From a virus, in IMG/VR virus record IMGVR_UViG_3300017956_000031, positions 1 to 43,489 of that record: DNA of 43,489 nt; one strand, given 5' to 3'. The notes under the pieces are model-generated. The model did not search any database. It was not told the DNA's origin and saw only the letters and a list, made by a program, of their open reading frames with translations. Numbering within the stretch: position 1 is the first letter of the stretch; each line of letters starts with the position of its first letter. The position numbers were made by a program, and so were the translations under genes. Positions 12,839-19,252 of the stretch are shown here, one piece after another.

Positions 12839-13371
12839 TTTATGATCTTGTAAAATCCGATGATAAGATACTGAGAGATAGTGGATTACGATTTGATTTT
12901 GAAAATCCTCCTGCTGATCCAGTTGAGTTAGCCACAAACTTGAAAGAATCAATGATAGCCCATAGAGGCCTCGGATTGTCTGCTTGTCAAGTTGGACTAC
13001 CTTGGAGAGTATTTGTTGCTGGGGACCCCAACGATCCTGATAACATCAAAGTGTTCTTCAATCCCAATATTGTTTCAACGTCAGAAAATATAGTTTTAAT
13101 GGAGGAAGGTTGTCTCTCCTATCCTGGACTTTTTATAAAAGTGAAACGGCCTGACTCAATAAGAATACGGTATGCTGGTTCTAATGGTAATATAACTACC
13201 GATGTGTTTGATGGCATACCTGCCAGAGTAATACAACATGAGTACGATCATATGGACGGTATTGTATTTAAGAATCGTTCTACTAAATTTCATTACGAGC
13301 AAGCTGTGAGACAAAAGAAAAGATTAGATAAGAAGAGGAAACTCAATGAGCAAAGGGTACGCGTTCTCTGA
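12835..13371 (+). CDS. def: peptide deformylase
   Basis: This 178-residue enzyme removes the N-formyl group from new proteins. All three motifs are present: GLGLSACQ (45-52, motif 1), EGCLS (91-95, with metal ligand Cys93) and HEYDH (135-139, with two His ligands and the catalytic Glu). Phage-encoded deformylases are frequent in marine T4-like phages and are thought to sustain protein maturation late in infection. The C-terminus is basic and overlaps queE by 26 bases. A role linked to the formyltransferase-like gene further downstream is conceivable but speculative, since deformylases act on peptides. Confidence 0.94.
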   Translation: MIYDLVKSDDKILRDSGLRFDFENPPADPVELATNLKESMIAHRGLGLSACQVGLPWRVFVAGDPNDPDNIKVFFNPNIVSTSENIVLMEEGCLSYPGLFIKVKRPDSIRIRYAGSNGNITTDVFDGIPARVIQHEYDHMDGIVFKNRSTKFHYEQAVRQKKRLDKKRKLNEQRVRVL

Positions 13372-14290
13372 AACGTTTTATTCAGTACAAGGTGAAGGTT
13401 TTTATACCGGAGTCCCATCAGTGTGGCTTCGGTTTTTTCTTTGCAATTTACAGTGCGATGGCTTTGGTCAAGAAGATCCGACTAACCCAGAAACGTATGA
13501 ATTACCTTACAAAGATTTTGATCCTATAGATGTAAAGAACGTCACTGATCTTCCTGTGTGGGAGAAAGGCTGTGATAGCTCGTACTCATGGTCGAAGAAG
13601 TTCAAGCATCTTCAAAAGAAGCAGACACCAGAAGAGATTGTTGAAACTCTTAGACGTGAAATGGTCAATGCGTATAACCCAGATGGGGATTTCAATCATC
13701 CTGTTTCACGGGCATCGGTACATCTTGTTTACACGGGTGGGGAGTCGTTGATGAAACATGCACAAGAAGCAGCTGTAGAGATTAACGCTGTGTATAAGAC
13801 CAAAGGAAATCATGAACGACCATGGCACACAACTTGGGAAACAAACGGTACGCAACCATTGACTGAACAGTTCATCAGGACATTTGGTAACAGAGGTCTA
13901 TATGGTGGTGAGCTGTTCTTCTCTTGTAGCCCTAAGTTGTTTACTGTATCAGGAGAAAAACCTAAGAAAGCAATACGTCCAGATATTGTTTCACAATACA
14001 ATGACCTTGGCATGACAGTGCGGGAAAGGTCAACAACATCAAGGGCCCCTGCCGGGCAGCTAAAGTTTGTTCTAGGTCCTAAGCCAGAGCAATGGGAAGA
14101 GCTTGACGAGGTGGTTCATCAATTTAGACAAGCGGGTGTAGACTGGCCTGTATGGATCATGCCTGTTGGTGCTACTGTAGAAGGTCAAAAGTTAGTTGAT
14201 GGTGATGTTGCTAACATGGCTCAAGAGAGAGGGTTTAATGTATCTGCAAGAGTGCATACCTATCTCTGGGGCAATGTGATTGGAGTATAA
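13346..14290 (+). CDS. queE: 7-carboxy-7-deazaguanine synthase QueE with an inserted loop in the cluster motif
   Basis: A radical SAM enzyme converting 6-carboxytetrahydropterin to 7-carboxy-7-deazaguanine, the third step to preQ0. The N-terminus has the QueE hallmark ETFYSVQGEGFYTGVPSVWLR. The three likely 4Fe-4S cysteines are Cys33, Cys37 and Cys76, where Cys76 lies in CDSSYSW, equivalent to the usual CDTxYTW. In most family members these form CxxxCxxC, so about 36 extra residues separate the second and third cysteines here. The YTGGE motif binds SAM. At 314 residues the protein is longer than typical QueE (about 200-250). The gene overlaps def, and queD follows after one base. Insertions in this loop are known in the family, so activity is plausible. 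Confidence 0.9.
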   Translation: MSKGYAFSETFYSVQGEGFYTGVPSVWLRFFLCNLQCDGFGQEDPTNPETYELPYKDFDPIDVKNVTDLPVWEKGCDSSYSWSKKFKHLQKKQTPEEIVETLRREMVNAYNPDGDFNHPVSRASVHLVYTGGESLMKHAQEAAVEINAVYKTKGNHERPWHTTWETNGTQPLTEQFIRTFGNRGLYGGELFFSCSPKLFTVSGEKPKKAIRPDIVSQYNDLGMTVRERSTTSRAPAGQLKFVLGPKPEQWEELDEVVHQFRQAGVDWPVWIMPVGATVEGQKLVDGDVANMAQERGFNVSARVHTYLWGNVIGV

Positions 14291-14291
14291 T

Positions 14292-14858
14292 ATGAAACTA
14301 AAATGTACAAAGTCTTATTACAATTTACCTGTAGCACATATGCAGTGGTTTGATACTGATGAGACAAGAGAACCACTAACAGGGCCCTGTTCTAAATGGC
14401 ATGGTTATGATAGATCGGTTCATTTTGAATTCGCTGGTGAAGCAGATGAACACGGGTGGATTGTTGGCTTTGGTGACTTGAAGCCTCTAAAGCAATTTTT
14501 AGAATACTACTTTGATCATACAGCTCTAGCAGGAGCTGATGATCCGAGACTAGATAAGATATACGAAGCGTATACTAATGGTCTCGTTGATCTTAGAGTC
14601 CTGCCTTACGGTGTTTCTATGGAAATGAGTGCTGTATTTATTTGGGAACAAGTTAACCCTTGGATCTATATGATTACAGATGGACGTTCTTATGTATCAA
14701 GAGTTGAATGTCGCGAGCATGAAAAAAATTCTGCTTTCATTGAAATAGAAGAAAAGATCGCTCGAAAGCAAGGTAAAAACTCAGAGCAACTTCTCACTAT
14801 GAGACCTAATTGGAATGAGTTTGTACCGCCGCGTGATATACTTAAAAAGTATAGCTAG
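14292..14858 (+). CDS. queD: QueD-like 6-carboxytetrahydropterin synthase with divergent zinc site
   Basis: A 188-residue member of the 6-pyruvoyl-tetrahydropterin synthase fold, expected to convert 7,8-dihydroneopterin triphosphate into 6-carboxytetrahydropterin. The start at 14292 is chosen because GGAG lies just upstream and QueE stops at 14290. Recognisable elements are His16 (PVAHMQW, first zinc ligand), Cys33 (GPCSKWHG, catalytic cysteine position), His37, GWIVGFGDLK (usually GWxxDFxxLK) and FDHTAL. The usual HGH is HGY here, so one of three zinc His ligands is replaced by Tyr39. It is also longer than typical QueD (about 120). The assignment rests on this pattern plus direct adjacency to queE. 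A zinc site completed by another residue, or an altered reaction, is possible. Confidence 0.78.
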   Translation: MKLKCTKSYYNLPVAHMQWFDTDETREPLTGPCSKWHGYDRSVHFEFAGEADEHGWIVGFGDLKPLKQFLEYYFDHTALAGADDPRLDKIYEAYTNGLVDLRVLPYGVSMEMSAVFIWEQVNPWIYMITDGRSYVSRVECREHEKNSAFIEIEEKIARKQGKNSEQLLTMRPNWNEFVPPRDILKKYS

Positions 14859-15225: not shown

Positions 15226-15909
15226 ATGATTTCTAAAGTGATTAAGAAACGTATTGACGATGCTAATGCTCGCTACTGGGCCGGTGATAATGTCTCTGAA
15301 TTCATCTATGATGAAAAAGAGAAACAATTACTTATAGATGAAGCTACAGAAAAGTTTGAAGCTGTTTTAGATTCATTGCTTATCGATAGACACAATGATC
15401 CTAACTCACAAGGTACAGGTCGACGTCTAGCGAAGATGTACATCAATGAAATTATGTCTGGTCGGTATAACCCTCGACCTACAGCAACCGCTTTTCCGAA
15501 TGATTCAGAAGATCGCTATGCAGGAATGCTTGTAGTACGATCTGAACTTAAGTCTATGTGTTCACATCATCACCAACCAGTAGCCGGTGTAGCGTATATT
15601 GGTATCATTCCAAGTAATAAAGTTATCGGTCTATCCAAGTATACTCGTATAGCTCAATGGTGTGCCCGTCGTGGTACGCTACAAGAAGAGCTTTGTAATG
15701 ATATTGCTCGTGAGATAATGCAAGCTACGGAAAGCGAGAATGTTGCAGTTTATATCCAAGCTACTCATGGTTGTTGTGAGAATAGAGGTATTAGTGCTCA
15801 TAGTTCTTTAACTCAAACGACAGTACTTAACGGGGAATTTAATGACCCAGGGGTCAAGAAAGAGTTTTTTGATAATATTAAGCTACAGCAGGAATTTGCA
15901 CCGAGATGA
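15226..15909 (+). CDS. folE: GTP cyclohydrolase I (FolE)
   Basis: A 227-residue enzyme opening GTP to 7,8-dihydroneopterin triphosphate, the first step of both folate and 7-deazaguanine synthesis. Family signatures are complete: the zinc ligand region MCSHHHQP (Cys112, His114, His115), YIGIIPSNKVIGLSKYTRI, and ATHGCCENRGI with the second zinc cysteine at 183/184. With queD, queE, queC and queF in the same window, its job is almost certainly to feed preQ0/preQ1 production. A GTP cyclohydrolase could also supply folate for the formyl donor of the nearby formyltransferase. The stop overlaps the dpdA start (ATGA). Confidence 0.95.
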   Translation: MISKVIKKRIDDANARYWAGDNVSEFIYDEKEKQLLIDEATEKFEAVLDSLLIDRHNDPNSQGTGRRLAKMYINEIMSGRYNPRPTATAFPNDSEDRYAGMLVVRSELKSMCSHHHQPVAGVAYIGIIPSNKVIGLSKYTRIAQWCARRGTLQEELCNDIAREIMQATESENVAVYIQATHGCCENRGISAHSSLTQTTVLNGEFNDPGVKKEFFDNIKLQQEFAPR

Positions 15910-16703
15910 GAATAGCTCACGAAGCCCCGTTAAGTATTATTAGAGAAGTACAAAAGGTAACAGACTACGATTATGCTCTTGTGCATTTATTTGACGAGAG
16001 TGAAGAGTATTATAACTTTTTTAAAGAAGCAGTATCAAAAGGAAGATACGTTATTTTAGATAATAGTATTTTTGAGCTTGGTACTGCGTTCGATATGAGT
16101 AAATTTGCAAGCTATGTAAATAAACTCAAGCCTTCAGCATACATTATTCCTGATGCTTTAGAAGACAAAGATAAAACTATCGCTAACTTTGAGCTTTGGA
16201 TGAAAAACTACGGTGATCTTCCAGGTAAAAAGATAGGTGTGGTGCAAGGTAAGACGTATGAAGAAGTCGTAGAATGTTATAACTACATAAAAGAGTATGC
16301 TGATGTTATTGCTATCTCTTTCGACTATAACTTCTATGAAAAACAATTTCCAAATGAAAAGACTAAGTACCATTCTTGGATGCTAGGCAGGCAAGATATG
16401 TTATGGAATATGCTTCAAGGTGGAATTATAGATAAGACAAAACCACATCACTTACTAGGTGCTGGTTTACCTCAAGAATTTGCCATATATAGACACTGGG
16501 ACTGGATCGATACTATCGATACTTCTAACCCTGTTGTTCATGGTATGAAAGGTATTAGATATCTACCACTTGACTTTGGTCTGCACGGTTTAGAAGACAA
16601 AGAGTCAACTAAATTATTTACTTTATTAGACGAACAAGTGTATAACATGGACGATATATTCTATAATATACGTATGTTTAAAATGAATTTAATGGTCGCG
16701 TAA
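15906..16703 (+). CDS. dpdA: DpdA-like DNA guanine transglycosylase
   Basis: A 265-residue protein with the layout of the tRNA-guanine transglycosylase/DpdA superfamily, which swaps a guanine base for a 7-deazaguanine. Asp52 in ILDNSIFELG matches the first catalytic Asp region. VVQGK (Gln114) matches the substrate-binding VQGG segment. LLGAGLPQEF (184-192) corresponds to LMGVGxPxD, and Asp205 in IDTSNPVVHG aligns with the nucleophile Asp of TGT. No zinc-binding CxCxxC is present, unlike tRNA TGTs, and the protein is short, as in viral DpdAs. It lies between folE and a formyltransferase-like gene, overlapping both. That context supports DNA rather than tRNA as substrate, but only experiment can decide. 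The DpdA subfamily cannot be settled from this sequence alone. Confidence 0.85.
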   Translation: MRIAHEAPLSIIREVQKVTDYDYALVHLFDESEEYYNFFKEAVSKGRYVILDNSIFELGTAFDMSKFASYVNKLKPSAYIIPDALEDKDKTIANFELWMKNYGDLPGKKIGVVQGKTYEEVVECYNYIKEYADVIAISFDYNFYEKQFPNEKTKYHSWMLGRQDMLWNMLQGGIIDKTKPHHLLGAGLPQEFAIYRHWDWIDTIDTSNPVVHGMKGIRYLPLDFGLHGLEDKESTKLFTLLDEQVYNMDDIFYNIRMFKMNLMVA

Positions 16704-17206
16704 TGTGGATTGCTTTATTTTCCAACAGTGGTAGTGAAATAGCTGCTATAGTAAAAAAGCTAGGTAAGAAGCCGGATATCATCTATTGTGATAAGAGACG
16801 TGTTGATTGGCACGACGATATAAAAAACGAAACGTTTCTAAGTAATCATAATAATATTGTAAAAATGTTAAGTATCGTGCCTAATAAAGTTTTAGTAACC
16901 TTGCACGGTTACCTTAGATTAATTCCAGAGCACGCTATATGTAAGCAAATGTATAATGTGCATCCTGGAGATATTGTAAAGCATCCTGAACTAAAAGGGA
17001 TACATCCTCAAGCTAAAGCATTAGAGCTTGGATTATCTTCGACAGGGGTTGTCATTCACCGAGTTATTCCAGAAATGGATAGTGGTGAGATTGTTTCATC
17101 AGCAGAATACACTATCAAAGATGGTGAGACTGAGACGGATTTGATTAATAATTTAAGAGATCTATCTATTAATCTTTGGTGTGATTTTTTGCGAGATAAA
17201 GTATGA
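16703..17206 (+). CDS. PurN-fold formyltransferase, candidate dPreQ1 formyltransferase (DpdN-like)
   Basis: A 167-residue protein of the 10-formyltetrahydrofolate-dependent formyltransferase family. The catalytic triad can be read: Asn85 and His87 in YNVHPG, and Asp126 in PEMDSGEIV. LHGYLRLIP resembles the folate-binding loop upstream, and GIHPQAKALELG matches the PurN segment HxxAxxxG. It is shorter than PurN (about 210) and lacks a clear GAR-binding N-terminal loop. It is coupled to dpdA (TAATG) and followed by queF, the source of preQ1. A predicted dPreQ1 formyltransferase named DpdN has been reported for phages with 7-(formylamino)methyl-7-deazaguanine DNA; this gene fits that role. The alternative is a formyltransferase for a sugar or nucleotide. 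Confidence 0.75.
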   Translation: MWIALFSNSGSEIAAIVKKLGKKPDIIYCDKRRVDWHDDIKNETFLSNHNNIVKMLSIVPNKVLVTLHGYLRLIPEHAICKQMYNVHPGDIVKHPELKGIHPQAKALELGLSSTGVVIHRVIPEMDSGEIVSSAEYTIKDGETETDLINNLRDLSINLWCDFLRDKV

Positions 17207-17466
17207 CAGACGAAATTGAAGAAACTGGTGATGCAAGGCCTGATCATTATAGTCAGAAAGAAGGTTCTATAGAATGTATTGCTGCTATTGAGCAGCTATG
17301 TGATGAGCATCAGAACGACCCGTTTACTGACTATAATCGTTTTCAAGCGTTCAAGTATTTATGGCGTCTTGGTAAGAAAGACGATGTACTGTATGAACTG
17401 TATAAAGCAAGACAATTCTTAGACTTTGCTATTGATAAATTAGAAAGAGACCGAGGTATTAAATGA
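17203..17466 (+). CDS. DUF3310 family protein
   Basis: An 87-residue protein with the DUF3310 pattern: RPDHYSQKEGSIECIAAIE, then FQAFKYLWRLGKKDD and KARQFLDFAID. The family is common in phages and its biochemical role is not established; it is sometimes labelled as a nucleotide-kinase-like protein. It overlaps the genes on both sides by four bases (ATGA), so it belongs to the modification operon. Co-location with nucleotide genes such as mazG is typical. Confidence 0.85.
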   Translation: MTDEIEETGDARPDHYSQKEGSIECIAAIEQLCDEHQNDPFTDYNRFQAFKYLWRLGKKDDVLYELYKARQFLDFAIDKLERDRGIK

Positions 17467-18380
17467 GTGAAATTGAAAATATTGCGAGTAAGCATTTAGG
17501 TAAAGCTGGTGACGGGTCTGTAGTAAAGCCTTATATTACTCCTGATAATGTGGATGCATCTTTGCTTGTTGGTGTACCTCGTCATCTTAATCGTACTGCA
17601 TATGATATTGATGATAACGATCTTCCGTTTGTCGGTGTAGATGCTTGGAACGGATATGAATTTTCCACTCTTCTTACGAATGGCTTTCCTGTATCTGGCT
17701 GGGTAAAGTTTACCTATCCATCTGACACCCCTAATATTGTTGAGAGTAAATCTGTAAAATTATATCTTAACTCTTATAATATGGCTCGTCTAATTGAAAC
17801 CACTGATGATGTTTATATTATAGAAGATAAAATATCTAACGATTTGTCTAAAGCAGTTGGTGGTGTTGTTGAAGTTTTTATTCAGAGGGGCGATATTGAT
17901 ACTGTTAAACCTATTATTGGTGACTTTACCTCGCTAGAGCATTATTGTAACATACAGAATATGTCGTTCGACAACTATAATGAAAGTGCTGATATTTTAG
18001 AAGTAGTTCCTTCTATTGGTAGATACGAACGTTGGAGATCTTACTCATTACGTTCTAACTGCCGAGTAACTAATCAGCCTGACTGGGGTGATGTATATAT
18101 TCACATTAAAGGTGAAAACTCTGTTACACCAGAATCATTACTTAAGTATATCGTATCAATGCGAAAAGAGAATCATTTCCATGAGGAAATTTGTGAATGT
18201 ATTTACAAGCGCTTGTACGACTTATTAGATCCTGAAGAATTATTTGTATCGTGTCTATATACCAGACGTGGCGGGGTAGATATTAATCCTACTCGTGCAA
18301 CTGATGATAATACACTTTACAAGTATGGTGGTGGTATAGTAGATGTGATGAACTTCTGTACCAAAACTGCAAGACAATAG
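17463..18380 (+). CDS. queF: NADPH-dependent preQ0 reductase QueF
   Basis: A 305-residue bimodular QueF (E. coli type, about 280 residues) that reduces the nitrile of preQ0 to the aminomethyl group of preQ1 with NADPH. The QueF motif ESKSVKLYLNSYN lies at 94-106. The catalytic Cys200 in LRSNCRVTNQPDWG and Asp207 are present, as are NHFHE (238-241 region) and the C-terminal YTRRGGVDINPTR. All key residues are intact, so this is a true reductase and not an amidinotransferase-type QueF-like protein. The phage should therefore insert preQ1 or a derivative of it into DNA. The gene ends the coupled run that starts at folE. Confidence 0.95.
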   Translation: MSEIENIASKHLGKAGDGSVVKPYITPDNVDASLLVGVPRHLNRTAYDIDDNDLPFVGVDAWNGYEFSTLLTNGFPVSGWVKFTYPSDTPNIVESKSVKLYLNSYNMARLIETTDDVYIIEDKISNDLSKAVGGVVEVFIQRGDIDTVKPIIGDFTSLEHYCNIQNMSFDNYNESADILEVVPSIGRYERWRSYSLRSNCRVTNQPDWGDVYIHIKGENSVTPESLLKYIVSMRKENHFHEEICECIYKRLYDLLDPEELFVSCLYTRRGGVDINPTRATDDNTLYKYGGGIVDVMNFCTKTARQ

Positions 18381-18443
18381 TGGTTTATGAAAGCTAACCA
18401 CTTTAAAGATCACACTGCTTTCTATATAAAGGTGTTAAAATGA
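18379..18443 (+). promoter_or_regulatory. hairpin and possible 18-residue leader ORF upstream of queC
   Basis: A 7-bp stem (AGTGGTT 18379-18385 / AACCACT 18396-18402) starts at the queF stop. An 18-codon ORF, from the ATG at 18387 inside the loop to a TGA at 18441-18443, overlaps the queC ATG at 18440. No good ribosome binding site precedes the leader ORF. The arrangement could couple or attenuate queC translation; it may also be chance. Confidence 0.3.
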
Positions 18444-19252
18444 AAAATATTGTTGTTTCTCTTTCCGGAGGTATGGACTCCTCAACTCTCTTACTACGCT
18501 GTATTAAAGAAGTAGGTGCAGAAAATGTAACTGCTATCTCTATGAACTACGGTCAAAAGCATGTATGTGAACTTGAGCGAGCTAGACAATTAGTTGATTA
18601 TTTGGCTACTAAAGGCCATAATATTACCTATCAAGTAATTAAGCTTGATGGTATTACTGAACTGCTTTCTTCTGCTTTGGTATCTGGTGGTGACGATGTA
18701 CCAGAAGGTCATTACGCAGAAGACAATATGAAGCAAACTGTAGTACCTAATCGCAATAAGATCTTTGCATCTATTGTACAAGCAGTGGCTCTATCTGTTG
18801 TTAAAAAGACAGATGAAGAAACTGCTATCGCTCTTGGCATTCACGCTGGTGACCATGCAATCTATCCTGATTGTCGTCAAGAGTTCCGTGATGCAGACGA
18901 TCAAGCATTCCGTATTGGTAACTGGGATGCAGAAAAAGTAACTTACTTTACTCCTTACTTGTATGGAGATAAGTTTGATATTCTTACAGATGGTACAGCT
19001 CTTTGTGTAGAGCTTGGTCTTGAGTTTGATGAAGTGTATAGCCGTACTAATACATCTTATAAACCTCTTCAGGTTAACGGTGTATGGTACTCAGACTATA
19101 AGAGTTCATCTTCAGTAGAACGTATTGAAGCGTTTATTAAACTTGGTCGTACAGACCCTGTTGCATATGCTGATGAAACTGGACCAGTACCTTATGATAT
19201 TGCACGACAGCATGCAGAGAAAGTGCTTGCTGAATATAATGAGGTTGCTTAA
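18440..19252 (+). CDS. queC: 7-cyano-7-deazaguanine synthase QueC lacking the zinc-binding cysteines
   Basis: A 270-residue ATP-dependent ligase family enzyme that turns 7-carboxy-7-deazaguanine into preQ0 with ammonia. The PP-loop SGGMDSS (9-15), VVPNRN (101-106), and GIHAGDHAIYPDCRQEF (133-149) are canonical. The C-terminal zinc site of normal QueC, a TxTCY cysteine followed by CGxCxxCxxR, is replaced: TNTSY (Ser206) and a stretch ending in SSSSVER, where Asp219, Ser222 and Ser225 sit at the cysteine positions. The surrounding fold is otherwise preserved, so a metal-free but active enzyme is likely. It follows queF after a 59-base gap and overlaps mazG by one base. Confidence 0.9.
   Translation: MKNIVVSLSGGMDSSTLLLRCIKEVGAENVTAISMNYGQKHVCELERARQLVDYLATKGHNITYQVIKLDGITELLSSALVSGGDDVPEGHYAEDNMKQTVVPNRNKIFASIVQAVALSVVKKTDEETAIALGIHAGDHAIYPDCRQEFRDADDQAFRIGNWDAEKVTYFTPYLYGDKFDILTDGTALCVELGLEFDEVYSRTNTSYKPLQVNGVWYSDYKSSSSVERIEAFIKLGRTDPVAYADETGPVPYDIARQHAEKVLAEYNEVA

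Follow-up and report, generated by a model that had tools for sequence, protein, structure and literature searches.

A QueC-like phage protein without the four zinc cysteines, predicted to be a working preQ0 synthase of a lineage also present in archaea and bacteria

In the portions of the 2026 QueC family survey cited here (PMC13329287), QueC is defined by the motifs SGGxDS, YxQxHxxE, VPxRN and YPDC, conserved Leu and Lys residues, and a zinc motif; possession of Cys4 counts as a family hallmark. Residues Y35, R99, Y131 and Y189 of E. coli QueC were identified there as essential by mutation. A preQ0-type QueC devoid of Cys4 is not described in the results and conclusions of this survey. Two QueC-fold proteins of anti-phage defence, Cap9 and QatC, keep the zinc site and modify a protein, and Cap9 was reported to retain the QueC catalytic core (PMC13329287). 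LarE and GMP synthase are PP-loop relatives without the QueC zinc motif (PMC13329287), but the remaining QueC motifs are missing from them as well, and their chemistry is different. C-minus ribosomal proteins, FolE2 and DksA paralogues are known to function although a cysteine zinc site has been lost (PMC2770081, PMC6103462); they are second copies under the control of Zur or have other folds. Among phages, a Campylobacter phage relative was linked to dADG and not to preQ0 (PMC6884629).

The window analysed here is a stretch of 43,489 nucleotides of viral DNA (IMG/VR record IMGVR_UViG_3300017956_000031), which carries T4-like replication and head genes and for which no near DNA match was found among phage records. 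It contains the following cluster of 7-deazaguanine genes:

13346..14290, plus strand, queE-like radical SAM gene (CDG synthase; phrog_2076, 2.6e-47)
14280..14858, plus strand, queD-like gene with HGY replacing the zinc motif HGH (PF01242)
15226..15909, plus strand, folE (GTP cyclohydrolase I) with zinc ligands retained (profile match, alignment)
15906..16703, plus strand, DpdA-type TGT-fold protein of 265 aa, predicted DNA guanine transglycosylase (AlphaFold2, PDB fold matches)
16703..17206, plus strand, formyltransferase, perhaps acting on preQ1 (PF00551 match)
17463..18380, plus strand, queF of the bimodular type with its catalytic residues retained (nitrile reductase, from preQ0 to preQ1)
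18440..19252, plus strand, QueC-like gene of 270 aa lacking the Cys4 zinc site, product predicted to be a preQ0 synthase

For the DpdA-type protein no Pfam match was found. Its AlphaFold2 model (pLDDT 94.8) has the (alpha/beta)8 fold of TGTs, and all 50 matches listed among solved structures are TGTs (Z 16.8-17.4). The 265-aa protein occurs in two forms, with either about 50-72% or 27-37% identity to that of the window (L208, L036 and others). The formyltransferase may be DpdN-like. In the window QueF, the Cys, Asp and His which act as catalytic residues in this enzyme are retained in an alignment to 3bp1. In the flanks of 133 related loci, which are of unequal length, DpdA was identified 93 times, QueD 74, FolE 55, QueF 46 and the formyltransferase 36 times. 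A long insertion of about 45 residues separates the second cluster cysteine of the window QueE from the third (FFLCNLQC...KGCDSSYSW). A peptide deformylase gene (PF01327, 12835-13371) lies directly before the deazaguanine genes and near the formyltransferase, and such a gene also lies close to the cluster in 8 of the 133 related loci. Peptide deformylase is common in marine T4-like phages, and the gene is possibly unrelated to the deazaguanine pathway.

The product of the gene at 18440-19252 matches the QueC family PF06508 (3e-34; score of 118.7 bits, with the cut-off at 22), and its best PDB relatives by sequence are the solved QueCs 2pg3 and 3bl5. Like canonical QueC (3BL5, 2PG3), it has the fold, the PP-loop, the three further motifs, the Tyr that follows the first Cys position and the operon partners. 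However, all four zinc cysteines are absent, S/D/S/S being found in place of C(x)8CxxCxxC, and the score of 122.6 bits against the NCBIfam QueC equivalog TIGR00364 is below the cut-off of 150.3 bits. Because of the missing zinc motif and the low equivalog score, the protein was not classed as a plain QueC. An operon with a CD-NTase or qatABD, as for Cap9 and QatC, is not present; the neighbours are preQ0 and DNA-modification genes, and queD, queE and folE are found around the gene in the window as well as in cellular operons. Motifs specific to LarE or GMP synthase do not replace those of QueC, which are retained as follows, together with the former zinc site:

18464..18481, plus strand, PP-loop SGGMDS, residues 9-14 (invariant in 51 sequences except for an S/T-type position)
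18548..18571, plus strand, YGQKHxxE, residues 37-44 (Y37, Q39, H41 and E44 invariant in 51 sequences)
18743..18757, plus strand, VPNRN, residues 102-106 (invariant in 51 sequences)
18863..18874, plus strand, YPDC, residues 142-145 (invariant in 51 sequences)
19055..19060, plus strand, S206 at the first zinc Cys position (codon TCT, 19055-57) and Y207, the counterpart of the essential E. coli Y189 (sequence, alignment)
19094..19114, plus strand, D219-Y-K-S222-S-S-S225 in place of CxxCxxC (sequence, alignment)

The counterparts of E. coli Y35, R99, Y131 and Y189 are Y37, R105, Y142 and Y207, and all four, including the Tyr after the first zinc position, show no variation across 51 diverse sequences of the Cys-less form. 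In the AlphaFold2 model, the QueC fold was predicted with confidence (pLDDT 93.7), also across the former zinc region. The closest solved folds are Cap9 (Z 18.4), QueC (18.3 and 17.4) and QatC (17.5), with alignments spanning about residues 1-238 or more. The spacing of CxxCxxC is kept exactly at D219 (GAC, 19094-96), S222 (19103-05) and S225 (19112-14), which are the equivalents of the last three cysteines in the QueC motif C(x)nCxxCxxC. The earlier note had described the gene as a QueC with canonical PP-loop and central motifs and with Ser206, Asp219, Ser222 and Ser225 at the zinc positions. Its coordinates and residues were found to be correct, the flanking TxTSY and VER are retained as well, and no residue of the QueC catalytic signature has been lost; the structure prediction which it had proposed gave the QueC fold described above.

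The same note had named a sequencing error as the reading to be considered if homologues kept their cysteines. S/D/S/S was identified in 67 of 67 first rows (65-100% identity), which comprise the window, its relatives from IMG/VR and one isolate, Flavobacterium phage immuto, and in 135 phage-type rows once further loci were added, so that the error reading fails. Over the 67 rows, the site is constant in spite of length differences of tens of residues in the loop that joins its two halves. Both TCN and AGY codons are used at each Ser site, and dN/dS of the window queC against its relatives is 0.05-0.15, which indicates that the site residues themselves are under selection. Error and decay were thus both rejected. 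That the enzyme is an inactive or decaying copy, with preQ0 being supplied by the host, is extremely unlikely: while a hallmark motif of the family has been lost, and many phages with such pathways infect Q-producing hosts (PMC6884629), the agreement of 135 rows, the strong purifying selection and the use of the Cys-less form as the only full-length QueC of some cells speak for a working protein. The cysteines are retained in all 62 canonical cellular QueCs that were fetched and in 12 of 14 other phage QueCs.

In comparison with Cys4 actinophage QueCs, no Cys or His able to rebuild a thiolate/imidazole zinc site has been gained. A replacement site built from newly acquired residues was looked for and not found: H41, H91, H135, H139 and C145 are all shared with the actinophage proteins. 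In the cellular Cys-less rows, the four positions are occupied by S, a variable residue, S/T and D, with a consensus of about T[NI]TSYxPDxxGRSxGx[ST]G[AS]DVERILAF and Asp at position 225. The three C-terminal positions always include one Asp, which lies at 219 in phages and at 225 in nearly all cellular rows. Zinc, magnesium or calcium might accordingly still be bound, with Asp219 or Asp225, Ser/Thr oxygens, Tyr or the backbone as ligands in place of thiolates, and the existence of a viral relative with a CCCD site is in line with this. However, position 219 varies among S, H, N, A, D and E in cellular rows, which is poor for a defined ligand, and Ser and Thr are weak zinc ligands; metal binding at the former site is therefore regarded as decidedly unlikely. 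The relative in question, viral QueC L345:2956-3711, has three zinc Cys with Asp as the fourth residue. A role for it as an evolutionary intermediate was not supported, since it groups with the Campylobacter phage QueC lineage, and an IMG/VR search with L345 as query returned only itself and two relatives.

Trees were built with the zinc-site columns removed and rooted at the midpoint, from an uneven sampling. All Cys-less rows formed one clade (SH-aLRT 96), with support of 100/100 once long-branch rows were omitted, the bootstrap being not fully settled; a single loss of the zinc site is enough to account for this clade. Its nearest neighbours are Cys4 phage QueCs, namely viral L343 and L344 and then other phages. 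L343, L344 and the actinophage QueCs (Rosebush-type, Sonali, Finch), which lie closest in the tree, share the PEGHY and HAGDH stretches with the window protein, but unlike it they keep Cys4. A second Cys-less lineage, without the Asp-Ser motif, is formed by Pseudomonas phage Iggy (L090) and Rhizobium phage RHph_Y55 (L096), with sites SHTSYD and SHTAYD. Membership of these two phages in the clade was excluded by the tree, their cysteines having been lost separately.

When bacterial and archaeal genomes were scanned with the family profile, the number of Cys-less rows outside the S/D/S/S type rose to 72, mostly from Marine Group II archaea, with Planctomycetes (L146, L160, L175) and Verrucomicrobiota (L109, L110) among the remainder. 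The S/D/S/S type itself is present in a Thiotrichales isolate (L104), on a 499-kb contig amid housekeeping genes; the small contigs L097-L103, binned as cells, may be phage. The earlier note had suggested a phage lineage of QueC without zinc. A QueC lineage devoid of the zinc site, conserved and with intact catalytic residues, is indeed real, but the chromosomal copies in archaea and bacteria rule out a lineage confined to phages. The position of these rows among phage rows offers only a lead that cells may have acquired the Cys-less form from viruses.

In 15 genomes searched with PF06508, no second full-length QueC was found in the archaea, Planctomycetes, Verrucomicrobiota and Thiotrichales. 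Genomes G004 and G013 hold a canonical copy besides the Cys-less one, and mis-binning is likely for G013, since its Cys-less contig looks archaeal. A sample of 116 Thermoplasmatota genomes contained 25 with a low-score QueC only (129-144 bits; 3 of the 25 sequence-checked) and 82 with a canonical QueC (224-277 bits), and the two were never both main copies in one genome. In Planctomycetota, the Cys-less form is rare: among 149 genomes in a sample centred on G015, G015 alone has a full-length match near the Cys-less score for which the Cys-less pattern was confirmed, and a wide distribution in this phylum was rejected. Being the only full-length QueC in these cells, the Cys-less form is more believable as a zinc-independent enzyme.

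The cellular gene neighbourhoods are those of a 7-deazaguanine pathway, with the order FolE-QueE-QueC-MsrB-QueD in Marine Group II L111, QueF-QueC-QueE in Verrucomicrobiota L110, and QueE-QueD adjoining the divergent QueC in Thiotrichales L104. In Marine Group II, a SelR domain (methionine sulfoxide reductase B) is fused to QueC or follows it (L117:5950-7146; L111:5986-7201). The bacterial genomes with the Cys-less form as the only full-length QueC contain QueF (6/6), QueA (6/6) and TGT (5/6), and the archaeal genomes with this form contain arcTGT (5/6) and QueD (6/6). Since the substrate of QueF is a nitrile, the simplest assumption for the cells is that the reaction runs all the way to preQ0. 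The MAGs used are incomplete and partly chimeric, and salvage of preQ0 or genes missing from such MAGs could explain single genomes, but not the whole pattern.

A changed reaction of the phage enzyme was also considered, in which it would stop at ADG or decarboxylate CDG instead of making preQ0. Decarboxylation of CDG would be a DpdL-like role. In the tree, a neighbouring long branch is that of the Campylobacter phages, which contain dADG (PMC6884629), and many phages of the group have no queF in the flank; by analogy, the Cys-less lineage may differ in the point where the reaction stops. Nevertheless, such a change is very unlikely, since the window QueF is intact and needs preQ0, cells with the Cys-less form retain QueF, QueA and TGT, and the catalytic signature is unaltered.

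The earlier note had further proposed an adaptation to low-zinc seawater. Most finds are marine by record title, and several of the pathway's zinc sites have changed: HGY replaces HGH in QueD in 71 of 71 phage loci, and no Cys is present among the conserved columns of the DpdA alignment. On the other hand, the Cys/His zinc ligands of FolE are kept in 121 of 121 loci, so zinc has not disappeared from the operon. The zinc-saving paralogues known so far are additional copies controlled by Zur (PMC2770081, PMC6103462), whereas the Cys-less QueC is the only copy, with no zinc-dependent second QueC to switch to. This is more readily explained by a change fixed long ago than by a response to zinc supply, and one old loss accounts for the pattern. 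The proposal, which concerns the cause of the change and is compatible with a working Cys-less enzyme, is thus considered unlikely.

Judged from the alignments, zinc sites appear to be altered in several steps of the pathway, the first step excepted, and a general relaxation of zinc use is possible; the zinc site of QueD may have been lost or rebuilt. The HGY-type phage QueD often has HSHC before the Cys, and outside the phages HGY is seen in QueD of the Thiotrichales isolate and of a few Marine Group II archaea (for example, L043, L104, L123 and L207 among the rows). A broader scenario, in which zinc was shed from most of the pathway (the Cys4 of QueC, the third zinc His of QueD, and DpdA, but not FolE) and a phage-born zinc-free QueC passed into Marine Group II archaea, Planctomycetes and Verrucomicrobiota, displacing the zinc enzyme, is tentative and rather doubtful.

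The gene of the window is thus likely to encode a working preQ0 synthase of a QueC lineage without structural zinc. This is suggested by the conservation of the site, the purifying selection, the intact catalytic residues, the fold, the operons, the presence as sole full-length QueC in cells, and the grouping in one clade, together with the QueF and the TGT-fold DpdA encoded beside queC. Counted against it are the score below the equivalog cut-off, the incomplete and partly chimeric MAGs, and the possible salvage of preQ0 in single genomes. The Cys-less QueC would convert CDG, with NH3 and ATP, via ADG to preQ0. Hydrogen bonds from a site of Ser, Thr and Asp, in place of the Cys4 knuckle, would hold the C-terminal segment and keep Tyr207 within reach of the active site. 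In the phage, preQ0 would be reduced by QueF to preQ1, which might then be a substrate of the formyltransferase, and the DpdA-type transglycosylase would insert the modified base into DNA. The product is likely a preQ1-type base in phage DNA, perhaps formylated, which, in line with described phage systems (PMC6884629), would likely protect against restriction.

It follows from this reading that zinc is probably not essential for the QueC step of modified-guanine synthesis. If the Cys-less form works as predicted, zinc would be unnecessary for the chemistry of QueC, and its role in the enzyme would become testable by a natural comparison of Cys4 and Cys-less proteins. QueC would then also be undercalled by automatic annotation in abundant marine archaea and viruses.
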